Shown here in pieces: positions 7,804-63,275 of a stretch of 64,000 nt of DNA. Made by a program: the position numbers and the translations under genes. Within the stretch, counting starts at the first letter, position 1, and the number at the start of each line of letters is the position of its first letter. The DNA lies in contig NZ_CP046046.1 in assembly GCF_009676705.1 (NCBI RefSeq), positions 682,001-746,000 on the forward strand, read 5' to 3'. The DNA comes from Spiribacter sp. 2438. GTDB taxonomy: Bacteria > Pseudomonadota > Gammaproteobacteria > Nitrococcales > Nitrococcaceae. The notes beneath the pieces were generated by a model. The model was given only the letters and a program-made list of their open reading frames with translations, ran no database searches and was not told the origin of the DNA.

Positions 7804-8427
7804 ATGTTTTTGTTTATTCGTGGGGTTACCGCTACCTCCCGGGCCGCCGCTGCAATAGCCGCCATTATGTTCGTTGTCGCGGCATTAGTCGTCTGCCAAA
7901 TGGTGTTCGTGCGCTACGTGTTGGGTGGTTCCACCTACTGGCAGACGGAGTTCGTCACATTCATGCTGATAGGTGCCACATTGCTCGGCAGTCCTTACGT
8001 CCTGCATGAGCGTGGTCACGTCAATGTAGATCTGTTGCCGATGCTCCTCGGACCCAGAGGCAAGCTGGCCCTTGTCTTGATCGGCAATTTTATAGCTTTT
8101 GCTTTTGTCGTCGTGGCGGCTTACACGGGACTTCTACTTTGGTTGGAGTATTACTCGACTGGCTGGCGCTCCTACACGGTATGGGCGCCGAGGCTCTGGA
8201 TACCCATGGCCTTTCTACCTGTGGGTATGATTCTGCTCGCCCTACAATACATCGCTCAGACTGCTGCCATCGTCATGGGGATAGAGGAGCCCTTCAGCAT
8301 GGAGGCTCAGCAACTGCTCAAGGAGCAGTCTGAGGCTGAGGCGAATGCAAAGCATCACAGGGAAAATCTTTCGAGTAAGACAGCGATGGGCCATCTCACC
8401 CAGAGTCATGGTGGGGGTAAAAAATGA
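7804..8427 (+). CDS. TRAP transporter small membrane subunit, DctQ family
   Basis: Small four-helix permease subunit, 207 aa. I prefer the ATG at 7804 (MFLFIRGVTATSRAAAA) because GGTGGTGAG sits just upstream; the in-frame ATG at 7744 lacks proper spacing. Conserved DctQ features include VFVRYVLGGSTYWQTEF at the end of helix 1 and HERGHVNVDL between helices 2 and 3. A hydrophilic tail of about 45 residues after the last helix is longer than usual. The stop overlaps the next start (ATGA). Confidence 0.85.
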   Translation: MFLFIRGVTATSRAAAAIAAIMFVVAALVVCQMVFVRYVLGGSTYWQTEFVTFMLIGATLLGSPYVLHERGHVNVDLLPMLLGPRGKLALVLIGNFIAFAFVVVAAYTGLLLWLEYYSTGWRSYTVWAPRLWIPMAFLPVGMILLALQYIAQTAAIVMGIEEPFSMEAQQLLKEQSEAEANAKHHRENLSSKTAMGHLTQSHGGGKK

Positions 8428-9743
8428 ACGAGTTTACTCTCGCATTGGTGATTTTGGCGGTCCTGATGGTGATTTTGCTTACCGGCACTCCGGTGGCTTT
8501 TGCCTTGGGAGCGACCGCGGTGCTCTTCCTCTTTCTCTTTGAGGGTGTCTTCGCTCTAGAAATGGTTGGCGAGATGCTCTACGCATCAATGAATAAGTTC
8601 ACGCTTCTGTCCATACCCATGTTCATTCTGATGGGTGCAGCGATTGCCTCGTCCCGAGCGGGAGCTGACCTTTACGAGGCACTGCATCGGTGGCTGTATA
8701 AACTGCCGGGTGGCCTTCTAGTATCGAATATAGGGGCTTGTGGGCTATTTTCGGCGCTGAACGGATCCTCTCCGGCGACATGCGCGGGCATTGGGAAAAT
8801 GGGGATTCCGGAGTTGCGCCGGCGCGGATACCCTGAAGGCCTGACCTGCGGTGCTATCGGTGCAGGGTCCACTTTGGGCATTCTTATCCCGCCCAGCGTC
8901 ACCATGATTATCTATGGGGTCAGCACTGAGACCTCCATCGGCCGGCTTTTTCTCGCCGGCATTGGTCCTGGCATTCTGCTCATCCTGCTTTTCTCGGCCT
9001 GGGCCGTCTACTACTCCTGGCGGGACGGAGCCCTATCCCGGATGGATGCGGATACGTACTTTAGCTGGGCGCAGCGCATGTCTATGGTGCCCAAGCTTTT
9101 GCCGTTCTTCATGGTAATCGCCTTCATCATGTGGGCGCTTTATGGTGGTGTAGCGACTCCCTCCGAGGCAGCCGGCGTCGGCGCGGTGTTCTGTGTGCTG
9201 TTAGTGATTGCCATCTATAAAGTATGGCAACCTCGGGCATTGTGGCGGATCCTGCGCACGAGCACCAAGGAGTCGGTGATGATCATGATGATCATCGGAT
9301 GCGCAGGGCTATTCGGCTTTATGCTCTCTCAGCTTTATGTCACCCAGGCCATCGCCAGTGCTGTGGGCGGTCTGGATGTAAACGCTTGGGTTTTGATGGG
9401 GCTCATTAATATCTTTTTGTTAATAGCAGGGCTATTTCTTCCTCCGGTGGCCGTTATCCCTATGACAGCACCCATTCTTCTGCCGATCATTCTAGATGCA
9501 GGATTTGATCCAATCTGGTTCGGCATAATTATGACGATAAACTTGGAGATAGGATTAATCACTCCGCCGGTTGGATTAAATTTGTATGTTCTCAAGGGCA
9601 TCGCTCCCGATGTGAAGTTATCTAAAATATTATGGGGGTCGCTGCCCTTCATGATTTTAATGCTGTTCGCTATCGTTATACTGAGTTTTTTCCCGTGGAT
9701 AGCGACGGGAATACCGGATGCACTTATGGGGCCGATGCGATGA
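8424..9743 (+). CDS. TRAP transporter large membrane subunit, DctM family
   Basis: Main transport subunit, 439 aa, with about twelve membrane segments. Family landmarks are GTPVAFALGATA near the N-terminus, NGSSPATCAGIGKMGIPEL, the sodium-site region GSTLGILIPPSVTMIIYG, and NLEIGLITPPVGLNLYVLKG near the C-terminus. The start overlaps dctQ by 4 bases and the stop overlaps matA by 4 bases, so the three are translationally coupled. Confidence 0.9.
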   Translation: MNEFTLALVILAVLMVILLTGTPVAFALGATAVLFLFLFEGVFALEMVGEMLYASMNKFTLLSIPMFILMGAAIASSRAGADLYEALHRWLYKLPGGLLVSNIGACGLFSALNGSSPATCAGIGKMGIPELRRRGYPEGLTCGAIGAGSTLGILIPPSVTMIIYGVSTETSIGRLFLAGIGPGILLILLFSAWAVYYSWRDGALSRMDADTYFSWAQRMSMVPKLLPFFMVIAFIMWALYGGVATPSEAAGVGAVFCVLLVIAIYKVWQPRALWRILRTSTKESVMIMMIIGCAGLFGFMLSQLYVTQAIASAVGGLDVNAWVLMGLINIFLLIAGLFLPPVAVIPMTAPILLPIILDAGFDPIWFGIIMTINLEIGLITPPVGLNLYVLKGIAPDVKLSKILWGSLPFMILMLFAIVILSFFPWIATGIPDALMGPMR

Positions 9744-11137
9744 GAAATCGGTGGTGGAATCGTCTGGTTAATCAGGTAGCCGACCGAGGCTTAGGTCTTT
9801 CCAAGCCCAACCAGAACCCAGATGTAATGAAACGTTTAGAGGAGAATTGTCGGGCGCTTCTCACCAGCCGCGGCGAGGCCTCCGGTGTTGCCCTGGCTCG
9901 CGAGGTCGCTCGCGCAGTCGATGAACTGGACGAGACGGGTAAGACCCGGTTCCTCCAGCTCCTGACCGAGCGGTTCGGTCCGGATCGGAACACCGTGCTG
10001 GCCGCGGCTGAGCGCTTTCGGAATAGCGATGGAAGGGCGGACCTGCAGGAGCTTCTACGGGTAGTGGAGCCTCCCCGTCAGGAGGTGTTCCGGCGCCTGA
10101 ACGGAGCACCGGACGGCACCCGTGTTCTGGTGCGACTGCGCGAGACCCTTGTGCGCCAACTCCGGGCTCACCCCGAATTGGAAACGGTGAACAGCGACCT
10201 GCAGCATCTGTTGAAATCCTGGTTCAACCCCGGTTTTCTGCAGTTGCGTCGAATCAGCTGGGACCGCAGTCCAGCCCTATTGATGGAAAAGCTGATTCAG
10301 TATGAGTCGGTGCATGCCATCCAGAGTTGGGAGGATCTGCGGCGACGTCTATCCGGCGACCGACGTTGCTTCGGCTTTTTCCACCCGGCGCTACCGGATG
10401 AGCCGCTTATATTCGTGGAGGTGGCCTTGGTCGAAGGACTGGCGACACAAACCGTGTCGTTACTCGACCCAGATGCACCTGTTGGGAACAACGCCCAAGC
10501 CGATACTGCCATTTTTTTCTCTATCAGTAACTGTCAGGTGGGGCTGCGTGGTGTGTCCTTCGGTAATTTCCTGCTGAAACAGGTCATGGGCGAACTCATT
10601 AGTGAGTTTCCCCACGTACAGCGATATGCCACCCTTTCCCCTGTTCCTGGATTCGCTTGCGCCCTGCGAGTCGAGGGCGATTACGAGGATGGGTTCACAC
10701 GTGACCGTATAGCTGCCTTAATTCAGGAATATGCGGAAACTTTGTGCTCGACAGCCGGTGTAGCTGATCCGGTAGACGCGCTGTATCAGTTGCTGGACGA
10801 TCCTTTGAGCAATCGCGTAGTGCTTGAGGAACCATTGTCCCGTCTAGTGCTTGCTTACCTCACAAGGGTCCGGCGCCGTGGAAGCGTGGCTGATTCCGTT
10901 GCTCGATTTCACCTCAGCAACGGCGCACGTCTCGAGCAGGTCGCGCCCTTCGCGGACAGTTCTTCAACGCGACTCGACGCTTCCTTTGGGATGATGGTTA
11001 ATTATCGTTATGTTGTCGATTCCGTTGAAAAAAACCATGAGCGCTTCGTCAAAACTGGAGAAGTAGCAATCTCAAGGCAACTGCAGAAGCAACTGAAGCA
11101 AGTCAATGCAGCTTGGGATAGTGGTGCTGCAGGATGA
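9740..11137 (+). CDS. matA: Malonyl-CoA decarboxylase
   Basis: Predicted to convert malonyl-CoA to acetyl-CoA and CO2 (465 aa). The N-terminal helical domain (residues 1-170) is followed by the catalytic GNAT-like domain with HPALPDEPLIFVEVAL, FFSISNCQVGLRGVSFGN and YATLSPVPGF. These carry the conserved serine of malonyl-CoA decarboxylases; the usual histidine in the HPALP segment is also present. The ATG at 9740 overlaps the dctM stop (ATGA). Together with matB it makes a two-step route from imported malonate to acetyl-CoA. Confidence 0.88.
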   Translation: MRNRWWNRLVNQVADRGLGLSKPNQNPDVMKRLEENCRALLTSRGEASGVALAREVARAVDELDETGKTRFLQLLTERFGPDRNTVLAAAERFRNSDGRADLQELLRVVEPPRQEVFRRLNGAPDGTRVLVRLRETLVRQLRAHPELETVNSDLQHLLKSWFNPGFLQLRRISWDRSPALLMEKLIQYESVHAIQSWEDLRRRLSGDRRCFGFFHPALPDEPLIFVEVALVEGLATQTVSLLDPDAPVGNNAQADTAIFFSISNCQVGLRGVSFGNFLLKQVMGELISEFPHVQRYATLSPVPGFACALRVEGDYEDGFTRDRIAALIQEYAETLCSTAGVADPVDALYQLLDDPLSNRVVLEEPLSRLVLAYLTRVRRRGSVADSVARFHLSNGARLEQVAPFADSSSTRLDASFGMMVNYRYVVDSVEKNHERFVKTGEVAISRQLQKQLKQVNAAWDSGAAG

Positions 11138-11336: not shown

Positions 11337-12066
11337 ATGCGTTTCGCGGTATGGCACGAAGCAAAGGATATTCGCATCGAGCAGGTCGATGTGCCCACGA
11401 TCGACGATCCGCACGAGGTCAAGGTGAAGGTCGCTGCCTGCGGGATCTGCGGTAGCGACTTGCATGAATATGCCGCCGGGCCGATTTTCGTGCCGGTTGA
11501 AGAGCTGCATCCGATTAGTGGTGTCAACGGCCATCAGTTTTGACCCCCCGTACGGACATTAACTTTGACCCGGGGGCCGGCGATCAGCCGGCGGTTTTCT
11601 CCTTTAGCCTGTAGCTCTCACCATCGAGCCTATCCTCTCGCCCAACCGGGATGGGGCCTATGTGATGGATCAGTACAACCTAACTCCGCTGCTGGGCTTC
11701 CACGGGCTCTCCGGTGGCGGAGGCGGGTTCTCGGAGTACACCGTGCTGGGCGAGCACATGGTTCATCCCATGCCGGAAGACCTCTCTTTTGAGCAAGGCG
11801 CCCTAGTTGAGCTGGCCGCCGTCGCTCTGCACGCGGTGCGGCAGTGCGGTCTGCAGGCCGGGGATACCGCGGTGGTTTTCGGAGCCGGTCCGATTGGCCT
11901 TATGGTCATCGAAGCACTGAAGGCCGCTGGGGCGGCCGCCATTTATGCTGCGGAGATTTCCCCAGCCCGCCGCGAAAAGGCGCAGGAGTTGGGTGCCGTG
12001 GTTTTCGACCCGGAAAGTGAGGACGTGGTGGCCAGCGTCACTGCAGCCTCAGTGGGGGGCGATTAA
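11337..12066 (+). pseudogene. Zinc-dependent 2,3-butanediol/alcohol dehydrogenase, broken
   Basis: The first fragment (11337-11521) encodes MRFAVWHEAKDIRIEQVDVP and VAACGICGSDLHEY, the catalytic-zinc cysteine region. A foreign stretch (about 11522-11635) follows. The frame resumes as LLGFHGLSGGGGGFSEYTVL and AVVFGAGPIGLMVIEALKAA, the Rossmann nucleotide loop. The section that should hold the structural zinc cysteines is missing, and the C-terminal third is cut off at the attachment site near 12071. The gene cannot make a working enzyme. Confidence 0.8.
11522..11635. mobile_element. IS21-like terminal scar inside the dehydrogenase pseudogene
   Basis: Between the two coding fragments lie AGTTTTGACCCCCCGTACGG and ATTAACTTTGACCCGGGGG, two spaced GGGTCAAA-type repeats in the reverse sense. 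Tandem repeats of this kind occur at IS21-family ends. No istA or istB sequence remains, so this is a deletion scar; the borders are approximate. Confidence 0.45.
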
Positions 12067-12070
12067 GTCA

Positions 12071-12127
12071 TTGTTTTTAATGGCTCCCCGGGACGGATTC
12101 GAACCGCCGACCCAGTGATTAACAGTC
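12071..12127. repeat. Left attachment site of the tRNA-Asn element
   Basis: 57 bases identical to 20410-20466 except for one A/T difference. They correspond to the 3' half of tRNA-Asn, from just past the CCA end to the anticodon stem, after which the sequences diverge. This is the expected product of a tyrosine integrase recombining into a tRNA 3' end. It is not a functional tRNA because the 5' half is missing. Confidence 0.92.
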
Positions 12128-12299
12128 TCTTCCTGCCATTTTCCTGAAAGCTAGTCACAGTGCCATTTCCGGCAATATAAACCATAAAAAACAGAGACTT
12201 GTGATCGCCTACGGGGTGACATCAAGTGACATTGACAGCCATTCCATACCCGTTTACGTTGTGACTATATTGTGACTAATCACAAAAGCGAGGGGCGGA

Positions 12300-13565
12300 A
12301 TGACCGAGCTGACCAGCAAACTAATCAAGGAAATCGAACCCCCGACCAAAGGCCGGCGGCTGATCGCTGATCAGCATCGAGACGCGCCTCGAGGATTCAC
12401 GCTCAAAGTCGCAAAGTCGGGCGCTAGGGTGTTCGTGCTCAGGTATCGAGCCGCTGGCCGTGACCGTGAGGTGACGATCGGCGAATGTGGCACATGGAGT
12501 CTCAAGGCAGCGCGTCTGCAAGCCCATGAGGTACGCCGTCAGGTTGATGCTGGCACGGACCCGCTGGCGGAGCGGGCACGAGCGGACGGTGAGCCGACTG
12601 TCGCCGATGCAGTAAGGGAGTACTGCCAGCGTCATGCCCACCGCCAAAAAAATGGGCACAAGGTTCAGCGGGCGCTGGAGATGTACCTGCTGCCCAAGTT
12701 CAAGCATTACAAATTGCACGAAGTCCGCCGGCGAGACGTGATCAAGATCGTGGAGGATCTGGCGGCAACCTACCCCCGGCAGGCAGCGATGTTGCTCGCG
12801 TATATCAAGCTGGTGTTTTCATGGGCTGAGGACAGGGAGCTCATTGAAGCGAACCCAGTGGCGACGTTGAAACCCCAAAAGATCGACCCGCGCATGAAAT
12901 CAGCGCCGCGACGCCGAGTGCTCACGGATGTTGAGATTAAGGCGCTATGGAATGGCGTAGATGACAGCCCGTTGCAACGTCTAACGGCTATCGCGTTGAA
13001 GATGGTCCTACTGACCGGCCAGCGACCCGGCGAGGTTGCCGGCATGCGATGGGATGAAGTCGAGGGGAATGTTTGGATTATCCCGGCATCGCGTCGAGGA
13101 AAAACGGACACAAGTCACCTTGTACCCCTGACCAGCACGGCGATGGACCTACTCGCTGAGGCTCGTGAAGAGGGGCGCCGTCTGGACAAGCGCCGCCGGT
13201 CTGGTAGCAGCGGGTTCGTGTTTGAGACACGTCCGGGTGCGCCGATCACCGTTAATGCGATAGACCGCGCCGTAAAGCGCCATGTAGCCCGTCTCGGCAA
13301 TGTTGAGGTTCAGGATGGCGGTCACTGGCGACCCCACGACCTGCGACGCACATGCCGCACGAGACTGAGTGCAGCGCACATTCCAGAGTCGGTGGCCGAG
13401 GCGGTAATCGGTCACACCCGCAAGGGCATCATCGCCGTCTACGATCAGCATGCATACGCCGAGGAAAAGCGAGCTGCCCTTGAGACATGGGAGCGGCACT
13501 TGCTCGCGATTGTGACCGGAGAAGATCACGAGAATGTCGTGCCGTTGATAGGGGCAGGGGCATGA
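12300..13565 (+). CDS. int: Tyrosine-family site-specific integrase
   Basis: Recombinase of 421 aa that would catalyse insertion at tRNA-Asn. The N-terminal DUF4102-like arm (residues 1-95, GFTLKVAKSGARVFVLRYRA) is followed by a SAM-like core-binding domain and the catalytic domain. The catalytic arginine is in TGQRPGEVAGMRWDEV; HxxR is in WRPHDLRRTCRT, and the nucleophile region is IIAVYDQHAY, with a further histidine in VIGHTRKG. This is the P4/phage-satellite type, usually encoded next to the attachment site as here (173 bases from attL). Confidence 0.95.
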   Translation: MTELTSKLIKEIEPPTKGRRLIADQHRDAPRGFTLKVAKSGARVFVLRYRAAGRDREVTIGECGTWSLKAARLQAHEVRRQVDAGTDPLAERARADGEPTVADAVREYCQRHAHRQKNGHKVQRALEMYLLPKFKHYKLHEVRRRDVIKIVEDLAATYPRQAAMLLAYIKLVFSWAEDRELIEANPVATLKPQKIDPRMKSAPRRRVLTDVEIKALWNGVDDSPLQRLTAIALKMVLLTGQRPGEVAGMRWDEVEGNVWIIPASRRGKTDTSHLVPLTSTAMDLLAEAREEGRRLDKRRRSGSSGFVFETRPGAPITVNAIDRAVKRHVARLGNVEVQDGGHWRPHDLRRTCRTRLSAAHIPESVAEAVIGHTRKGIIAVYDQHAYAEEKRAALETWERHLLAIVTGEDHENVVPLIGAGA

Positions 13566-14107
13566 ACAAGCTAGAGGCGATACTAGCCGGCGATCATGTG
13601 CCGCGACGCCAAAGCCAGCGGGCACCCCGCAAGAGCCGAGCGGGCCGGAGGAAGTCCGCTAGTGTTCGCGGAGTCTCAAAGCTGGCATGGCTGGCGGTAG
13701 AGTTCGAGCGCTGGCGGCGCGGAGAGCGGGGGCGCCGCAAGGCTTGTGACCGCGTGGCACGCCGTTGGCAGGGCGATCTTATTGCGGACGGTGCGATGCA
13801 GTGGCCTTGGCAGGATCGGCGCGTGAGCAGCGACACAATCCGCACGATCTGGAACAAGGCACAGATACGGCGCAGGCGCGATGGCAGATTCCGCGCCGAT
13901 TGCGATCTTGAGCTCGAGGCAATGTGCTATGCATGGAGTGAGTCGAAGCGGACCGGTGAGGATGGCGCGTCAATATATGCCGACTATCTGACCCGCAAAC
14001 GATTCGCCCGCCGCTTCGGCTACGAATTGAGCGCCGAAGAAATTGAGGCGCGATCCGGCATCACGCTCGAAGAAGCCGAGGAACAGGCCCGCAGCTTTTC
14101 CCCCTAA
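13562..14107 (+). CDS. Hypothetical basic protein of the integrated element
   Basis: 181 aa, coupled to the integrase by an ATGA overlap. The N-terminal 50 residues are rich in Arg, Lys and Ser, which suggests nucleic-acid contact. The middle has a Trp-rich segment (MQWPWQDRRVSSDTIRTIW) and the C-terminus is acidic. I recognise no family. Its place between integrase and the AlpA-like gene suggests a role in element maintenance or control. Confidence 0.6.
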   Translation: MNKLEAILAGDHVPRRQSQRAPRKSRAGRRKSASVRGVSKLAWLAVEFERWRRGERGRRKACDRVARRWQGDLIADGAMQWPWQDRRVSSDTIRTIWNKAQIRRRRDGRFRADCDLELEAMCYAWSESKRTGEDGASIYADYLTRKRFARRFGYELSAEEIEARSGITLEEAEEQARSFSP

Positions 14108-14161
14108 TTTTTACGCCACGAGTCTTGGCCCTGACATTCAAAGTCAGACGGGGCCAAGTAA

Positions 14162-14365
14162 ATGCCAAACCGTACCAATCGGACGACTCACGAGCTCGCG
14201 GAATATCTCCGTAGATCCGAGCGGACGCTGATCCGCTGGCGCCATCAAGGCATCGGGCCGAGCTATTTCCGCCTGAATGGGCAGGTGCTTTATCCATCCG
14301 ACCTGACCGAGCAGTGGCTAGAGTCGAATCGCCATAACCCAGTTCGCGAGAAAGGGGTGGCGTGA
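14162..14365 (+). CDS. AlpA/excisionase-like helix-turn-helix protein
   Basis: 67 aa with a MerR-like HTH_17 fold: TTHELAEYLRRSERTLIRWR, then a wing with FRLNGQVLYPSDLTEQWLES. Such proteins act as excisionases or activators of integrase expression in P4-like satellites and prophages. Its stop overlaps the next start (GTGA). Confidence 0.75.
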   Translation: MPNRTNRTTHELAEYLRRSERTLIRWRHQGIGPSYFRLNGQVLYPSDLTEQWLESNRHNPVREKGVA

Positions 14366-14853
14366 TGGAAAGAAAAGGAAAAGCGCCAGCCGGAAACTGG
14401 CGCCTAAATGGTGACAATCTTAACTATAACCCATCCGAGACGCTCCTCAGCAAGTTGGAGGGAGTCCGGCCTCGTGGTGATGGCCGCTGGACCGCCTGCT
14501 GCCCGGCGCATGGCGATCGGTCGCCGAGTCTGTCGATCCGTGAGCAGGGCGATGGCACGCTGCTAGTGCATTGTTTCGCCGGTTGCTCGGCGACTGCGGT
14601 GCTGGAGTCTGTTGGGCTAAGTCTCAGCGATCTTTTCCCGGACAACATGCCGGAGCGGGCACCCACCCGCCCTGGTCAGTGCTGGGTGCCCCGCGATGTG
14701 CTCGCCGCCGTTGCCCGTGAGGCGCTGGTGGCGATGTTGGCCGCTGAGGCGGTCACGAGAGGCGAGACCCTCGACGAAACTGATCGCGACCGGTTGGCGC
14801 GAGCCGCCGCCACACTCCGGGATGCAGCGCGGGAGGTGGGCTATGACGTCTAA
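14362..14853 (+). CDS. CHC2 zinc-finger (primase-type) protein
   Basis: 163 aa. WTACCPAHGDRSPSLSI and LLVHCFAGCSATAVLESVGL form the C-x-x-H...C-x-x-C zinc ribbon of DnaG/P4-type primases (CPAH and CFAGC). No Toprim or polymerase domain follows, so this is a stand-alone zinc-finger module, as often seen upstream of DUF3987 proteins in small prophages. I use GTG at 14362, which overlaps the previous stop; the ATG at 14365 is an equally good start. Confidence 0.75.
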   Translation: MMERKGKAPAGNWRLNGDNLNYNPSETLLSKLEGVRPRGDGRWTACCPAHGDRSPSLSIREQGDGTLLVHCFAGCSATAVLESVGLSLSDLFPDNMPERAPTRPGQCWVPRDVLAAVAREALVAMLAAEAVTRGETLDETDRDRLARAAATLRDAAREVGYDV

Positions 14854-16333
14854 CCTCGAGCGAAAAGTCGAGCATATAGCGAGCCGGTGGCCTGACATCG
14901 TGCCGCTGCATCATGCAGCGCCGCCGGAGTTGCCCGTCGATCAATGGCCGAGCGTGCTGTTCGATTACGTCGAGGGTGCATCGGCAGAAACCGAGACGCC
15001 ACGGGCGCTGCCCGCCATGCTGGCCGTGGGTGCAATCTCAGCGGCGGTTCAGCGCGTGCTGTCGGTGCAGGTAAAACCGGGCTACGCCGAGCCCGCCAAC
15101 CTGTTCATCGCCGTGGCGTTGCCGCCGGGCACCCGCAAAAGCCAAGAGTTCAAGCGAGCCAGCCGCCCGCTAGTGCGCTGGGAGGCGAAGCAAAGGGAAT
15201 CGACTGACGAGCAAAGGGCCGAGGCTGAGTCCAAGCTCGCGACGCATAATCAGCGAGTCTCAGAGCTTCGCAAGAGAGCCGCCAAGGCCACCGACGATGA
15301 TGAAGCCGAGGATCTAGCCCAGCAGGTTGCGGACCTCGAGGCGAAAGCGCCGACCATCCCAAAGCCGGCGCGGCTTTTCACTGGCGACGTCACCACCGAG
15401 CACCTCGGCACGATGATGGCGGAGCAGCGGGAGGCGGTGGCTGTCATGAACGCCGAGGGTGGGCTGTTTGAGACGATGGCCGGGCGCTACGGCAATCAGG
15501 TTCCCAATTTCGACCTGTATCTGTCTGGTCATGCCGGTGACTCCGTTCGCGTTGATCGCGGAAGTCGGCAGCCGGTGATGCTGGATGATCCGCGCCTGAC
15601 GGTCTGCCTCGCGGTCCAGCCGGACGTGCTGAGCGCACTCTCCAGCAAGCCGGGGTTTCTTGGTCGCGGGCTGTTGGGGCGATTCCTTTATGCCGTGCCC
15701 GAGTCGAACCTCGGCGATCGTGATGGCGACGGGCCAGCGATGAACGCATGGGTTCTCGACCAGTATGTGGCCGCCGTTGGTGAGTTGATCGACTACGGGC
15801 AGACCGCCGATCCCGTGACGGTCCACCTGACCCCCGATGCGTTCCAGACGTGGCAGGCGCTATGGGCCGAGATTGAGGCCGATATGAAGGCCGGCGAGCG
15901 GTTCGAGCACATGCGCGACTGGGCAGGTAAGGCACCCGGCGCAGCGGCAAGGCTGGCAGCGCTGTTTCATGCGTTTCGTCATGGCCGCGAGTTGGCAATG
16001 CACGAGATCAGCGCCGATGACATGGACGCGGCAGCCGACACCATCCGCGCACTCGCGGATCATGCGGTTGCGGTCTATGACGCTATGCAAGCCGATCCGT
16101 TGATCGAGGGGGCTCGCGTGGTGCTGCGCTGGATACGCCGTCACGGGTTGACCACATTCACCGCCCGCCAGTGCTACCAAAACCACAAATCCCGGTATCC
16201 GGTTATGTCCGACCTTGAGCCGGTGCTCGCGATGCTGGTGGATCGCAGCTATATCCGCGAGGCCGATCAGGCGATCGGCAAGCCGGGCCGGCCATCGTTG
16301 GCGTATGACGTTAATCCGGGGTTCTGGGGTTAA
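14843..16333 (+). CDS. DUF3987-family replication protein (YfjI-like)
   Basis: 496 aa, with GGGAGG just before the ATG at 14843, overlapping the CHC2 gene by 11 bases. The DUF3987 pattern is visible: LFIAVALPPGTRKSQEFKRA near residue 90 (a degenerate P-loop-like region), a charged helical stretch, then FTGDVTTEHLG and GRGLLGRFLYAVPES. DUF3987 proteins usually accompany a primase zinc finger in satellites and are thought to act as the replicative helicase or primase partner. That role is inference. Confidence 0.75.
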   Translation: MTSNLERKVEHIASRWPDIVPLHHAAPPELPVDQWPSVLFDYVEGASAETETPRALPAMLAVGAISAAVQRVLSVQVKPGYAEPANLFIAVALPPGTRKSQEFKRASRPLVRWEAKQRESTDEQRAEAESKLATHNQRVSELRKRAAKATDDDEAEDLAQQVADLEAKAPTIPKPARLFTGDVTTEHLGTMMAEQREAVAVMNAEGGLFETMAGRYGNQVPNFDLYLSGHAGDSVRVDRGSRQPVMLDDPRLTVCLAVQPDVLSALSSKPGFLGRGLLGRFLYAVPESNLGDRDGDGPAMNAWVLDQYVAAVGELIDYGQTADPVTVHLTPDAFQTWQALWAEIEADMKAGERFEHMRDWAGKAPGAAARLAALFHAFRHGRELAMHEISADDMDAAADTIRALADHAVAVYDAMQADPLIEGARVVLRWIRRHGLTTFTARQCYQNHKSRYPVMSDLEPVLAMLVDRSYIREADQAIGKPGRPSLAYDVNPGFWG

Positions 16334-16436
16334 TGGGGGTTAAGGGGGCACATATGAAAAACCATCGTGAGGTTAATTCTCTCTCTCCTGATTCAAATGA
16401 ATCTGTCCAGATAGCGACCCCCAAACCTCAAAACGG

Positions 16437-16619
16437 GTGGAGCGGATGTTACTGGCGGCGGCTTCTGAGGCGGACGTCGCCGAGCCGCTGGAGGTGCTGG
16501 CGGCTGAGTTCGCGGATGACCTCGCTGCTCTCAGGGCTGGTCGCGTTTCATTCTTGGCGCTGGTGGATGCCATGCACACGCTGGCACGGGTTCGCCAGTG
16601 GCGACGGGCATGGGGTTAA
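16437..16619 (+). CDS. Small hypothetical protein of the element
   Basis: 60 aa from a GTG start (VERMLLAAASEADVAEPLEV), predicted to be one or two helices, rich in Ala and Leu. A frame running through 16354-16707 overlaps it, but that frame turns Trp/Arg-rich in the shared part, which looks like shadow translation. No family recognised. Confidence 0.45.
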   Translation: MERMLLAAASEADVAEPLEVLAAEFADDLAALRAGRVSFLALVDAMHTLARVRQWRRAWG

Positions 16620-16779
16620 GGGGGGCACGACAGAGACCGGCCTCGCGGCACCCCGTACCCTTTTCGAGGCCAAGGTGATCGCAAATCACTTGGCAACGGG
16701 AATTTAACTAATTGTTACGCCAATAAAATCGGCCACATAAAGGCAGTTTAATCCGGTATTAGTCACGAGATAATCACAC

Positions 16780-17130
16780 ATGGGCAAGAAAAATGAGCTA
16801 CCACCCCGCTATACCCACGACTGGATCGAGTCCCTCGACCAGCGCACGAGTCTGGCCCGCGCTGTTCGCGATCGCCTGCAACGTCTCGAGGCTGACATGG
16901 GCGGCGGGGATTCGCTGAGCTATCAGCGGCGCAGTCTCGCCAAGCGGGCCATTTTCATGGAGGCGCTAATTGAGCAGCGTGAGGCAGCCATTGCGCGTGG
17001 CGAGGACGTGGATCAGGGGCAGTTAACTCAAGCGACCAACACGCTGATCGGGCTGCTCAAAACCATCGGGCTCGATCGGCGGGCCCGAGATCTGACTCCG
17101 GCGGAATACCTGCGGAGTCGCGCCTCGTGA
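16780..17130 (+). CDS. terS: Phage terminase small subunit
   Basis: 116 aa, directly before and coupled to the large terminase (GTGA overlap). The helical content and the motif LARAVRDRLQRLEADMGGGD fit a small DNA-binding packaging subunit. The C-terminus LTPAEYLRSRAS resembles P27-like terminase small subunits. Identification depends largely on position; the sequence alone gives only moderate support. Confidence 0.7.
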   Translation: MGKKNELPPRYTHDWIESLDQRTSLARAVRDRLQRLEADMGGGDSLSYQRRSLAKRAIFMEALIEQREAAIARGEDVDQGQLTQATNTLIGLLKTIGLDRRARDLTPAEYLRSRAS

Positions 17131-18533
17131 ATCACCCCGCGCCTGCAATGTGCGACCCGATTACGGCACTCACGGACCCGAAGCTACTAGCTCCGATGCT
17201 ACCGGGCGTCGATTCGGGATCGTGGGATGCGTGGCTGGATGTTGTACGCGGGCTGTATGGGATGCCCGTCGAAGATGCGGATCGCTGGCGGCAGCTAACG
17301 GGCAGAAAGCCGCCTGAGCAGACGCTCCGGCAGGCGTATGCGCTGGCGGGCAGACGTGGTGGGAAAACCGCGATCAGCGCCGCGCTGGCAATCTATGAGA
17401 CGTGCCTGCGGGACTGGTCCGCACTCGCGGCACCGGGCGAGCGGATCGTGGGCGCGGTAGTCGCGGCAGACCGGCGGCAGGCTGGGCAGGCCATGCGGTA
17501 CATGGTTGGCGGGCTCGAGGCCAGTCCGGTGCTCAGGGGCATGATCGAGCGCACCACCACCGAGTCCGTGGATCTGGCAGGTGGTGTCGAGCTGGCGGTG
17601 ATGACGGCATCCCATCGGTCGATCCGGGGGCGATCATTCGCGGTGCTCATCGCCGATGAGCTGGCCCATTGGCAGGCGGATGGCATGAACCCGGACGTTG
17701 AGATCCTTCGCGCTGCGGAGCCCGCGCTGGCGCTGACGGATGGGCTGCTGCTGGGCATATCGACGCCGCACCGGCGGGACGGCGTGCTGTACTCCAGATA
17801 CCAGCGAAACTGGGGCCGCGACGATGCGCCCGCGCTGGTGATTCAGGCACCGAGCACGACGATGAACCCGCGACTGCCGCAGTCACTGGTGGATGACGCG
17901 CTGGCGGAGGATGAGCCGGCGGCGCGGTTCGAATACCTTGCCGAGTTTCGAGATGACCTCGCCAGTTTCGTAGACCGCACACTCGTGGAGTCACTTGTGT
18001 CTGACGTGGCCGAGCGCCCGCCAGAGCGGGGGCATCGCTATCGGGCCTTTGTTGACGTGTCCGGTGGGCGAGGCGATTCGTTTACATGGGCCATAGCGCA
18101 CAACAAAGGTCAGACCGCCATGCTCGATCTGGTGCGTGAGGTTCGACCGCCATTCAACCCCACCGAGGTGGTGGCCCGGTGCGCGGAGGACATTCAGCGC
18201 TACCGGCTGCGCGAAGTTACTGGCGACCGCTACGCGGGCGAGTGGGTGACGGAGGCATTCGGCACGGCTGGCGTGAAGTACCAGCCAAGCGAGAAGAATC
18301 GCTCGGAGTTGTATCTGGACCTGTTGCCCATGATGACGGCGGGGCAGGTGGAGTTGCTGGAGCATGACCGGCTGGTGAGTCAGTTGGCGTCGCTCGAGCG
18401 ACGGACAAGAACCGGAGGCAGGGACAGCGTGGACCACCCCCGAAACGGGAGTGATGACGTTGCAAACGCCGCGGCAGGGGCGCTGGTGGCAGCGCCTCGA
18501 GTTAGCGGGATTCACAAACTCAATACATGGTGA
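17127..18533 (+). CDS. terL: Phage terminase large subunit (packaging ATPase/nuclease)
   Basis: 468 aa. The ATPase domain has a Walker A-like AGRRGGKT (residues 74-81), an adenine-motif region around GERIVGAVVAADRRQAGQA, and Walker B in VLIADELAHW. The C-terminal RNase H-like nuclease has YRAFVDVSGGRGDSF as its first acidic motif, RLREVTGDRYAGEWV as the second, and SDDVANAAAGAL near the end. It would pump DNA into a prohead. No portal, protease or capsid gene follows, so the capsid would have to come from a helper, or the structural genes have been deleted. Confidence 0.9.
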   Translation: MNHPAPAMCDPITALTDPKLLAPMLPGVDSGSWDAWLDVVRGLYGMPVEDADRWRQLTGRKPPEQTLRQAYALAGRRGGKTAISAALAIYETCLRDWSALAAPGERIVGAVVAADRRQAGQAMRYMVGGLEASPVLRGMIERTTTESVDLAGGVELAVMTASHRSIRGRSFAVLIADELAHWQADGMNPDVEILRAAEPALALTDGLLLGISTPHRRDGVLYSRYQRNWGRDDAPALVIQAPSTTMNPRLPQSLVDDALAEDEPAARFEYLAEFRDDLASFVDRTLVESLVSDVAERPPERGHRYRAFVDVSGGRGDSFTWAIAHNKGQTAMLDLVREVRPPFNPTEVVARCAEDIQRYRLREVTGDRYAGEWVTEAFGTAGVKYQPSEKNRSELYLDLLPMMTAGQVELLEHDRLVSQLASLERRTRTGGRDSVDHPRNGSDDVANAAAGALVAAPRVSGIHKLNTW

Positions 18534-18653
18534 CCAGCAATGCGTGCATTCCGAACCGATGACTGAGCCAGCAATCCGGCCCTTCGTTATGACGGCCAGT
18601 TGCCACCGCGCCGAGGGCGCCGCCCTGCTGAGACAAGGCCGATCAATTATAGG

Positions 18654-18682
18654 ATGGGCCAACCCGAAGGTTTCGGGCTGGC
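18654..18682. terminator. Hairpin downstream of terL
   Basis: A 13-base stem with one mismatch (GGGCCAACCCGAA / TTCGGGCTGGCCC) and a GGT loop lies between convergent terL and the outer-membrane protein gene. There is no U-tract on the plus side, so it may be a weak bidirectional terminator. Confidence 0.4.
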
Positions 18683-18745
18683 CCTCTAGCATGTACCTTA
18701 ATGCCTAGCACAGCCCTGATGCTCAAACAAAGCCATGCCCTATTT

Positions 18746-19366
18746 TTAGAAATGATAAACGATACCGAGATCAACGGTCTGTTCAATCGGATCGAAATCT
18801 ACGTCATCGACTGTCTCGTCGGAATAATCATAGCGCATGGCTTCTAGCCGAAGGCCGATATTCTGAGAGGCCATGTACTCAACTCCAAGCCCAATGCCGA
18901 CTCCAGTGAAGTCTTCATCCCCGCTACCAACGTCGTCGAACGATAATTCGAATTCCCTCTCGCCATATGCAATTTTGCCGTATATCAGAAGCCCTGGATT
19001 TGGAACAAAGCCAATTCTCGCTGCTACTGCATAGCCGTCTCCAGTCTCTGCATCAACCCGGTCTCCGTCAATATTGGCCACTCGCCCGTCGAGATTGTTT
19101 GTAAGCGTATATTGACCTTCCGCTCCGAAATAAAACTGGCCTTGCTGCACACCGTAGCCCGCGATTACATCCAACTTGGTGAATATGCTATCTTCGATTC
19201 CGAGATTAAGAACATCGCCGTCGGCGTCTTCTTCAATGGTAGCAGATGTGAACAGACCAGTGGAGCCACCTATATAAGCACCGGTGAAATCTGCATTCGC
19301 GGACGAACCAAAACCCAGCAAAATAAGACCTGAAAAAGCAGTTGCCAATTTTTTCGCTCTATTCAT
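18746..19366 (-). CDS. Outer-membrane beta-barrel protein (opacity/OmpA-barrel type)
   Basis: 206 aa with a signal peptide (FSGLILLGFGSSANA, cut before DFTG). The mature chain alternates polar and hydrophobic residues, with barrel strands such as GAYIGGSTGLF, FYFGAEGQYTL and VDLGIVYHF. The terminal Phe is the usual BAM recognition signal. I use the ATG at 19366, preceded by GGGGAT. It is on the opposite strand to the phage genes, noticeably richer in A/T, and placed like a lysogenic-conversion cargo gene. A role in phage exclusion or surface change is speculation. Confidence 0.75.
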   Translation of the reverse strand: MNRAKKLATAFSGLILLGFGSSANADFTGAYIGGSTGLFTSATIEEDADGDVLNLGIEDSIFTKLDVIAGYGVQQGQFYFGAEGQYTLTNNLDGRVANIDGDRVDAETGDGYAVAARIGFVPNPGLLIYGKIAYGEREFELSFDDVGSGDEDFTGVGIGLGVEYMASQNIGLRLEAMRYDYSDETVDDVDFDPIEQTVDLGIVYHF

Positions 19367-19545
19367 TTCTACTATCCCCAATGGTTTTATGTCTTCCTTA
19401 AAAAAACGATGCTTACATGGATCTCTCCGTTTTTTAGAATATGTCGCATTCCTTTGGAGGCGTCAACTATTGTTTAAAGTCGAATCTTACCGATAAACAT
19501 TAGGGATATTACAAAGCTTTTCGGTGTGGAGATATGCGAGAAACG

Positions 19546-20040
19546 GTGATCTTGCCCAGTAACAGTGGACACTCGATTAAGTCGCTATCCGGGCTTCGAA
19601 CGCATCGGGGCTGATGTATCCGAGGGCAGAATGGCGACGGGTTCGGCTGTACTCCACTTCGATGTGCTCGAAAAGGGCTTGGCGCACGGCATCGGGGTGC
19701 ATCAGCGACACATCGTGGATGCTTTCGACCTTCAGGCTGTGGAAGAAGCTTTCCACCACCGCATTATCGTAGCAATTGCCACGGCCGCTCATGCTGGCGA
19801 TCAGCCCGTAGCGACGGATCAGGTTGCGATGGTCCCAGCCACAGTAAACGCTGCCACGCTCGGTGTGCATGATCACACCGCTCGGCTCGCCACGCCGGGC
19901 CAGCGCCGCTCGCAGCGCCGCGCAGGCAAGCTCAGCGTCGATGCGCGTGCTGGTCGCCCAGCCGATCACCTTGCGCGTGCACAGATCCAGAACCACTGCG
20001 AGGTAAAGCCAGCCCTGGGTAGTCCGCAGGCCGGTGATAT
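19546..20040 (-). pseudogene. IS3-family transposase (orfB) 3' fragment with IS end
   Basis: The minus strand encodes the DDE domain of an IS3-type orfB without its start: DITGLRTTQGWLYLAVVLDL, then MHTERGSVYCGWDH (the second catalytic Asp of the usual HSDRGSQY is Glu here) and GRGNCYDNAVVESFF. The frame opens abruptly near 20040, where element DNA resumes. The IS end is at about 19546 (GTGATCTTGCCCAGTAACAG), and the same 101 bases recur at 62801. Orf A and the 5' half of orf B are absent. Confidence 0.8.
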
Positions 20041-20092
20041 CACTGGGCGTGCCGAGGCGCTCGATTACCGCATCGAGGCGTTGCTCGGCTGA
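20041..20092 (+). pseudogene. 3' stub of a plus-strand element gene (tentative)
   Basis: Right of the IS3 fragment a plus-strand frame ends with AEALDYRIEALLG and a stop at 20092, about 50 bases before a plus-strand terminator. It could be the tail of an element gene whose body was lost with the IS event. The opposite strand also has a coiled-coil-like reading here, so the assignment is weak. Confidence 0.25.
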
Positions 20093-20143
20093 CGTGGCGC
20101 GCTGCTCTGCGGCGTCGGCGCGCCGGTCCCAATGAAAGCGGCA

Positions 20144-20174
20144 CCCCCGTGGCTTATGGCTGCGGGGGTTTTTT
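20144..20174 (+). terminator. Rho-independent terminator at the element's right end
   Basis: CCCCCG pairs with CGGGGG across a 12-base loop and is followed directly by six T residues. It reads on the plus strand, although the only intact gene here is on the minus strand. That supports loss of a plus-strand operon between terL and this point. Confidence 0.65.
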
Positions 20175-20346
20175 AATGCCCTGACACCGCCACCCGATAC
20201 TCACGAGCAAGCTGCTCACGAGTGCCATGCCCCTCGGACACGAGGTAGTCGATGTAAATCCTGAGCCCCTCTTCGGCATGCTCACGGGTGGGCAAGTCGC
20301 CTGAGAACCGCCCACCCTTTTTCTTGTGGGTGATGTAGTGCGGCAT
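20173..20346 (-). CDS. 57-aa protein next to the right attachment site
   Basis: Small protein starting MPHYITHKKKGGRFSGDLPT and continuing with an acidic-helical part (EEGLRIYIDYLVSEGHG). Codon use and length look genuine. It is the last gene before attR and points into the element. No family recognised; small genes at this position in satellites are often regulatory, which is speculation. Confidence 0.5.
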   Translation of the reverse strand: MPHYITHKKKGGRFSGDLPTREHAEEGLRIYIDYLVSEGHGTREQLAREYRVAVSGH

Positions 20347-20409
20347 TCTAGGTTGTGACTAAGTTGTGACTAATGCGTTTCGGGTTGTCGGGCGGCGCTA
20401 GCTAAGTGG

Positions 20410-20466
20410 TTGTTTTTATTGGCTCCCCGGGACGGATTCGAACCGCCGACCCAGTGATTAACAGTC
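20410..20466. repeat. Right attachment site (within tRNA-Asn)
   Basis: 57-base copy matching 12071-12127 with one mismatch. It covers the CCA end, T arm and anticodon region of the intact tRNA gene. Repeat-to-repeat distance is 8339 bases, the size of the integrated element plus one repeat. Confidence 0.92.
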
Positions 20467-20494
20467 ACTCGCTCTACCGCTGAGCTACCGGGGA
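20420..20494 (-). tRNA. tRNA-Asn (GTT)
   Basis: On the minus strand the 75-nt gene starts TCCCCGGTAGCTCAGC and ends CCGGGGAGCCA. The 7-base acceptor stem pairs fully, the anticodon loop is CTGTTAA (anticodon GTT, asparagine), GGTTCGAATCC is the T arm, and CCA is encoded. Its 3' half is the integration target of the neighbouring element and was restored by the attachment-site duplication. Confidence 0.96.
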
Positions 20495-62800: not shown

Positions 62801-63035
62801 GTGATCTTGCCCAGTAACAGTGGACACTCGATTAAGTCGCTATCCGGGCTTCGAACGCATCGGGGCTGATGTATCCGAGGGCAGAATGGCGACGGGTTCG
62901 GGGTACTCCACTCCGATGTACTGGAAAAGGGCTTGGGGCTTGGCGCAGGGCACCGGGGGTGGATCAGGGCCACCCCAGGGAGGCTCTCGACCTTCTGGCT
63001 TTTGGGAGAAGCTGGCACATCCATGGCACATTCAA
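62801..63035 (-). pseudogene. IS3-family end, second decayed copy
   Basis: 62801-62901 is identical over 101 bases to 19546-19646 (the IS3 end and last codons of orfB). Then similarity falls sharply: 62902-63035 still follows the same order (GGAAAAGGGCTTGG...) with many substitutions and frame changes. It marks the right end of the accessory island; the remaining bases to the tRNA hold no gene. Confidence 0.7.
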
Positions 63036-63198: not shown

Positions 63199-63275
63199 AG
63201 GCGCGTAGCTCAGCTGGTTAGAGCACCACCTTGACATGGTGGGGGTCGGTGGTTCGAGTCCACTCGCGCCTACCA
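63199..63275 (+). tRNA. tRNA-Val (GAC)
   Basis: 77 nt, starting AGGCGCGTAGCTCAGC and ending CGCGCCTACCA. The acceptor stem pairs fully, the D arm is CAGCTGGTTAGAG, the anticodon loop TTGACAT gives GAC (valine), the T arm is GGTTCGAGTCC and CCA is encoded. It sits between the island and thrS. Confidence 0.96.

Follow-up and report, generated by a model that had tools for sequence, protein, structure and literature searches.

A stretch of 64,000 nucleotides (the window, to which all positions without a locus or genome label refer) from the single-contig, 1.9-Mb genome of Spiribacter sp. 2438 carries an 8.3-kb mobile element inserted at a tRNA-Asn gene. The element encodes a large terminase subunit (TerL) and a putative small one (TerS), together with an integrase and replication genes. 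We consider it likely that the element is a phage satellite in its integrated state, which uses its own terminase to package itself into the heads of a helper phage, and not a prophage whose capsid genes were deleted. This reading is carried by the boundaries of the element, its gene content, the recurrence of capsid-less elements with related TerLs in distant hosts, and the purifying selection under which TerL has evolved.

A repeat-bounded element with a terminase at tRNA-Asn

The 8.3-kb sequence is a real mobile element: it is bounded by repeats, carries a full-length integrase and has paired repeats at its termini. The 57-bp repeats that a preliminary description had placed at the tRNA-Asn were recovered by a repeat search of the window as direct repeats of 67 nt, 94% identical and spaced 8339 bp apart (Table 1). 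In addition, the 10-mer TTGTGACTA occurs in 4 exact copies in the window, against 0.13 expected, and all four are located just inside the element ends. As a pair lies just inside each terminus, the left and right ends belong to one element; the pairs look like arm-type integrase sites. The 10-mer was also found with one mismatch on the opposite strand before TerS (16759-16768), one of 5 such matches, a number reached by 1 of 100 shuffles. Aminotransferase- and uvrB-like genes, both recognised by eye, lie beside the insertion site. Between positions 11337 and 12066 there are open reading frames (ORFs) that by eye resemble pieces of a zinc-dependent dehydrogenase, the last of which ends within the attL repeat, as though cut short by a previous event here.

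The genes for the integrase, a 181-amino-acid (aa) ORF, the AlpA-like helix-turn-helix (HTH) protein, the CHC2 and DUF3987 proteins, the TerS-like protein and TerL are all transcribed in the same direction and have alike GC contents at the codon positions. Hidden Markov model (HMM) matches confirmed the integrase, AlpA-like, CHC2, DUF3987 and TerL genes of the compact set described earlier, TerS being assigned by position. An ORF overlapping int by 4 nt is present in 12 of the 40 members of the integrase cluster. As the preliminary description had stated for portal, capsid and tail genes, none of these, and no protease or connector gene either, was found among the 10 element ORFs scanned with Pfam and PHROG HMMs.

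We next consider the terminase. Against Pfam TerL_ATPase, TerL scored 21.6 bits in one scan (cut-off 23.7) and right at the cut-off in another, and its profile matched the PDB entries for T4 gp17 (3ezk) and a terminase large subunit (6z6d) with E values of 2e-4 to 8e-4. We take its Walker A, Walker B and nuclease aspartates (310, 367, 443/444) to have the roles usual for these motifs. The 116-aa protein had no Pfam or PHROG match up to E = 1; we propose that it is TerS-like because at many loci its homologue lies shortly before a related TerL. In the protein clustering this was the case at 37 loci, at times with one small ORF in between, and the alignment holds 36 rows, with one duplicate omitted. 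The nearest TerL, 62% identical, is that of Halospina (locus L014), in a capsid-less 9.56-kb element at tRNA-Ser. Between the two elements, non-synonymous divergence (dN) was 0.34 and synonymous divergence (dS) 2.10, near saturation, for TerL, and 0.68 and 1.64 for TerS. TerL is under purifying selection, and it, at least, was kept as a protein while both elements were capsid-less.

Table 1. Features of the 8.3-kb element and its ends, in window coordinates.
Feature	Position	Strand	Evidence
attL	12064..12130		copy of tRNA-Asn 3' end and flank; 67-nt direct repeat, 94% identical to 20403-20469
Two repeats TTGTGACTA, left	12259..12278	+	copies at 12259 and 12270, 11 bp apart; exact-copy count
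Tyrosine integrase, 421 aa	12300..13565	+	PF00589 2.6e-25; Arm-DNA-bind_3 2.4e-17; 50% identical to integrase of G051 element at same tRNA-Asn
181-aa ORF, position of PICMI iolg	13562..14107	+	overlaps int by 4 nt (ATGA); no convincing family match in library scans
AlpA/excisionase-like HTH regulator, 67 aa	14162..14365	+	HTH_17 4.2e-9; phrog_66 excisionase 2.2e-7
CHC2 zinc-finger protein, 163 aa	14362..14853	+	phrog_6088 DNA primase 7.1e-15; PF01807 4.4e-4, below Pfam cut-off; homologous ORFs in L027 and L028
DUF3987 replication protein, 495 aa	14846..16333	+	PF13148 1.8e-96; phrog_2373 DNA helicase 5.4e-64; ORF scanned from 14696
Tentative 60-aa ORF ahead of TerS	16437..16619	+	codon-position GC 0.80/0.50/0.72, neighbour-like; no family match
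Putative TerS-like protein, 116 aa	16780..17130	+	4-nt overlap with TerL; 41% identical to G051 protein; 36-row alignment
TerL, 468 aa	17127..18533	+	phrog_2 1.1e-21; Walker A GRRGGKT, Walker B LIADE, Asp 310, 367, 443/444 conserved in alignment; PDB profile matches
Outer-membrane beta-barrel protein (OMP), 211 aa	18746..19381	-	PF13505 4.3e-16; GC 0.48
IS3-family transposase C-terminal fragment	19577..20095	-	NF033516 1.2e-42, profile 237-369 of 369; under cut-off, as expected for a fragment
Terminator-like hairpin	20143..20169	+	hairpin scan; such sites not above chance in number
57-aa ORF beside right TTGTGACTA repeats	20173..20346	-	ORF list; codon-position GC
Two repeats TTGTGACTA, right	20353..20372	+	copies at 20353 and 20364, 11 bp apart; exact-copy count
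attR	20403..20469		overlaps tRNA-Asn(gtt) 20420-20494 (-); right repeat is the 3' part of the tRNA gene

Capsid-less relatives and the TerL tree

With a profile built from two TerLs, 14 loci of 39-62% identity were detected in bacterial genomes, in hosts that, going by their organism names, we take to be alpha- and gammaproteobacteria and one metagenome-assembled genome labelled Deltaproteobacteria. Strains of Marinobacter koreensis, Alcanivorax jadensis and Halospina denitrificans are among these hosts. Searching 369 genomes of the class, the TerS profile hit 4 more, L032 among them. Since the TerL profile hit 4 of 398 phylum genomes, the source genome included, the family is rare but wide. 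Counting the 8.3-kb element, 14 elements are bounded by direct repeats, with a spacing of 7.4-15.7 kb. Among the 13 others, 11 have repeats that overlap a detected tRNA gene (Asn, Ser and Leu twice each; Gln, Trp, Thr, Pro and Lys once); at the repeats of L021 and L022 no tRNA was detected. Some of the repeats are short (16 nt in L014, 17 in L016 and 13 in L028), and in L016 and L028 they are not the longest repeat found. The integrase cluster is represented in 13 of the 14 elements, and a TerS homologue was detected in 12 (not in L015 and L022); the TerL of L030 is just 29% identical to ours. In L131 an IS-like insertion, which contains a transposase-like ORF of 270 aa, splits the TerL gene around 8420-9290. 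An intron or intein splitting TerL in genome G589 was considered and rejected, as the insertion reads, by eye, as a transposase-like ORF and Rfam found only a tRNA there.

To survey the gene content of these elements, the proteins of all 14 were scanned together at E <= 1e-4. The set comprised 133 proteins, derived from 140 listed ORFs after the window ORFs were corrected, two CHC2 ORFs added and some short or antisense ORFs dropped; Int, TerS, TerL and ORFs below 75 aa were omitted. The Pfam scan of this set returned no portal family and no major capsid protein family. It gave 17 families in all, including DUF3987 in 4 proteins, DUF5906 in 3, DUF2213 in 2, and Phage_scaffold and an HK97-gp10-like tail component in 1 each. 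Among the 25 of 74 PHROG families listed there were four head maturation proteases, and PHROGs call two of the pooled proteins head maturation protease. DUF2213 proteins are encoded at 8849-9295 in L004 (by HMM) and at 12414-12884 in L027 (by clustering with that of L004), in elements without capsid or portal; these proteins may act on the head of the helper. A tape-measure-like protein (phrog_28, 4.7e-11) was seen in a single element, L019.

We then looked at the same site in 14 genomes of the genus. The tRNA-Asn 3' end is present in 13 of them, with two copies in the source genome, G051, G041 and G048 and one copy in the other nine. At this tRNA-Asn, G051 carries a 9752-bp element whose integrase, TerS and TerL are 50%, 41% and 44% identical to those of the 8.3-kb element. 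Its replication gene has no similarity to ours, and after TerL come genes of 209 aa and 81 aa and one for a DUF2213 protein. The second tRNA-Asn copy of G048 borders an element that is cut off by the end of its contig; the integrase of this element is 52% identical to ours, and no TerL was found in G048 at E <= 1e-10. G041 has 24.9 kb between two tRNA-Asn 3' ends (C5:60671-85621), where blastp against the local protein set (no HMM scan) matched the ORFs only to host-like flank proteins and showed no phage-like genes. G039, G040, G042 and G044 have one tRNA-Asn copy only, and in all four the right flank stays conserved (80-82%) as far as the tRNA. At this tRNA-Asn, none of the 14 genomes showed a prophage that corresponds to both sides of the gap. 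A search for PF06381 gave 0 of 14, but its control gave no signal either, so this result is uninformative.

Viral contigs gave no match to the single TerL of the 8.3-kb element and only 20-22% identical relatives to the two-sequence profile; a profile of 19 TerLs found 114 relatives, of which 80 were kept. These include phages with portals, and the idea of a satellite-only TerL was dropped. Some of the viral-contig relatives have an HK97-type capsid gene and some a tape measure gene. For the TerL tree 96 sequences were clustered, and 89 remained after 6 duplicates and 1 short row were dropped. In the tree the 8.3-kb element pairs only with L014 (SH-aLRT 100), the deeper placement of the pair being without resolution. 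A group of L004, L020, L024, L026, L027, L028 and L029 has a support of 99, and none of its members bears a portal, major capsid protein (MCP) or tape measure protein (TMP) label. The four states (portal, MCP, TMP, none) are clustered yet intermixed, with 21 changes against a shuffled mean of 40.5; a few rows are mislabelled, since a portal is missed if its ORF overlaps TerL. TMP labels are PHROG matches for representatives plus local HMMs.

An integrase of the cluster lies within 8 kb of TerL at 34 of the 89 loci, and with corrected labels these include 0 with a portal detectable by the five local portal clusters, 3 with an MCP and 11 with a TMP, whereas 30 of the 55 loci without such an integrase have a portal. 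This contrast partly reflects compactness, as prophage integrases usually lie farther from TerL. Where the TerS is of the satellite type, 3 of 37 loci have a portal. At L019, L035, L036, L039, L048, L051, L061, L066 and L081 a related TerL is followed by a tape-measure-like protein, neither a portal nor a capsid label lying within 8 kb; such loci could be satellites that bring the motor and a tail part.

Exact terminal repeats of 60-123 bp were found in 4 of the 34 small viral contigs available over their whole length; these 4 are circular or tandem units of 9338 bp (L033), 9705 bp (L038), 9422 bp (L047) and 8117 bp (L097). L033 and L038, both from IMG/VR, encode an integrase and a related TerL; both also have a tape-measure-like ORF of 698 aa that runs uninterrupted over the join, and a TerS match is shown for L038. 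L047 and L097 have an HK97-type MCP and TerL, with no integrase-cluster match and no evident portal; L047 also has a tape-measure-like ORF.

Proposed helper dependence and rival explanations

Our model suggests that, upon infection by a helper phage, the element would be excised by AlpA and Int, probably together with the product of the ORF that overlaps int. The CHC2 and DUF3987 proteins would then replicate it, probably as concatemers, and its own TerS, whose function we infer, would select the element DNA. TerL would dock on the portal of procapsids made by the helper and pump the DNA in, with head, portal and tail all supplied by the helper.

Helper induction, replication, packaging and transfer are modelled on relatives or on what has been published for PICMIs and PICIs. 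Several points weigh against this model. Full phages, too, have related TerLs, and some of these phages have a PF06381-type portal and a different TerS; loci with and without a portal are intermixed on the TerL tree, and portals were detected by five local portal clusters only. The TerS-like profile matched neither PDB TerS structures nor the TerS of portal-bearing related phages. The repeat-bounded elements share no common gene order or replication gene, and the integrase is at the opposite end in L015, L022 and L030. The pooled PHROG picture covers 25 of 74 families, so that rarer structural families could lie in the other 49. The 8.3-kb element lacks a pair of genes located after TerL in both L014 and L133 (tblastn, E <= 0.05). 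An HK97-type capsid gene was found in 0 of the 14 genus genomes (the control was positive in 4 of 14 control genomes), and thus no resident helper is evident. In L032 a TerS-like protein is encoded (9996-10322), and no TerL was found in the 1.1 kb that remain to the contig end.

The region right of TerL, which holds the OMP gene, the IS3 C-terminal fragment and the 57-aa ORF, raises the possibility that the element belongs to the satellite family but that this copy was inactivated, its genes right of TerL having been lost to an IS3/OMP rearrangement so that it can no longer be mobilised. We regard this as a possible but doubtful outcome; it is a sub-case of the satellite reading and overlaps with it in probability. 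In L014 and in L133 (G740, a 9.6-kb element at tRNA-Leu), TerL is followed by genes of 262/257 aa and 91 aa, 39% and 35% identical between the two elements, and it is this pair that the 8.3-kb element lacks. The ORFs of the relatives gave short, weak tblastn matches only on 18500-20420 (best E 1.8e-4). Given the missing pair and these weak matches, the right part was probably rearranged in this copy, the OMP gene and IS3 fragment replacing other genes, and the copy may be impaired. On the other side, the pair is known from two elements only, post-TerL genes vary, and the pair may be dispensable; moreover, none of the int, AlpA, replication and terminase genes has an interrupted reading frame. 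A second partial copy of the IS3 fragment, 87% identical, lies at about 62801-63013, near a tRNA-Val at 63199.

The same region had been described as supporting a loss of structural genes. A change right of TerL is borne out by the missing pair and by the OMP and IS3 sequences, but the pair itself has no capsid or portal match. Of the two supporting signs, the plus-strand terminator at 20144 corresponds to an existing hairpin, but it adds little, as 7 such sites turned up in the scan where 6.9 were expected; the possible gene stub near 20041 is weak too, being antisense to an IS3 transposase frame that is open on the minus strand across 19580-20095.

This bears on whether the element is the remnant of a temperate phage that lost its portal, capsid and tail genes right of TerL, which we consider improbable. 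The IS3 fragment and the GC-poor OMP gene do stand where structural genes would follow TerL, and related TerLs are found in phages with portals. However, the closest relative and 12 other repeat-bounded elements are also without a Pfam portal or major capsid protein, and no integrase-linked TerL locus (0/34) has a portal detectable with the five local clusters. Both ends of the element are present, its core ORFs are open and the dN/dS of its TerL is low, and none of the 14 genus genomes has a matching prophage at the site. Of the two origins offered in the preliminary description, the satellite is supported by the recurrence of capsid-less relatives, and the deletion remnant as proposed there is not supported. 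Also improbable, in our view, is an integrative element that uses its terminase otherwise than for its own packaging, for instance to interfere with phage packaging as a defence: no helper is known and satellites often interfere with their helpers (PMC6092414, in excerpt), but the element retains a TerS-like protein as well as a TerL whose ATPase and nuclease motif residues are conserved, as would be expected for a packaging motor.

If the satellite reading is true, a motor without portal or shell implies that a packaging motor can function across the boundary between phages and satellites, and the question of which part sets satellite-helper specificity becomes directly testable. TerS and TerL beside int, AlpA and a replication gene would also serve as a signature when searching for satellites which finders based on capsids could overlook. 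More tentatively, and with slightly less than even confidence, we propose a widespread proteobacterial satellite class with TerS and TerL beside an integrase and a replication gene (PICMI-like here) that leaves the portal to the helper. As its members would add at most a few virion parts, such as a head protease, a tape measure or a major capsid protein, the borrowed portal would be the fixed docking point and the terminase would set the helper range.

Comparison with known satellites

P4-like satellites are marked by the regulatory and capsid-remodelling genes sid, psu and delta. None of these was named among the matches of the general Pfam and PHROG scans of the element ORFs, in which no search was aimed at P4 genes. 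The scans also set the element apart from a temperate prophage, which would have portal, capsid and tail genes.

Published systems are compared here through excerpts of the cited papers. Known satellite families are surveyed in PMC11389934; VEIMEs and tycheposons are marine satellite-like elements, and VEIMEs have been found in virions (PMC10803314, PMC11389934). Described satellites use the TerL of the helper with at most a TerS or adaptor of their own, or bring a whole capsid set with the terminase (PMC10690885). In the literature searched (titles and abstract starts, with VEIMEs, tycheposons and cf-PICIs covered through others' descriptions) there was no capsid-less satellite with both terminase subunits, which is no proof of novelty.

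Gram-negative PICIs resemble the 8.3-kb element in having int, AlpA and a primase or replication gene within an att-bounded island, and some have terS (PMC6092414). They differ in that the element has TerL, and 'terL' occurs 0 times in the text of that paper. Like cf-PICIs, the element encodes both terminase subunits (here TerL by HMM and TerS by position), but in cf-PICIs these are accompanied by capsid, protease, portal and connector genes, none of which was found here (PMC10690885). The Streptomyces phage satellites Mulch and Flayer likewise have both subunits; they possess portal and capsid and no recognisable primase, whereas the 8.3-kb element is the reverse (PMC10690885).

The closest likeness in gene content is to PICMIs, which consist of int, mostly an ORF overlapping or adjoining int, alpA and prim (DUF3987/DUF5906) beside fis, and are packaged as concatemers in full-size helper heads, with no terS, sid or ppi homologue identified (PMC10803314). 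The 8.3-kb element shares with them its small size, the absence of capsid genes and the co-localisation of int, an ORF with an ATGA overlap in the position of iolg, alpA and a DUF3987-type prim. In contrast, PICMIs lie next to fis without identifiable packaging genes, and the element lies in tRNA-Asn with a TerS-like protein and TerL (PMC10803314). It matches the PICMI core and departs from it in site and packaging genes, and is thus no PICMI member; by analogy, it may function as PICMIs do, but with a motor of its own.

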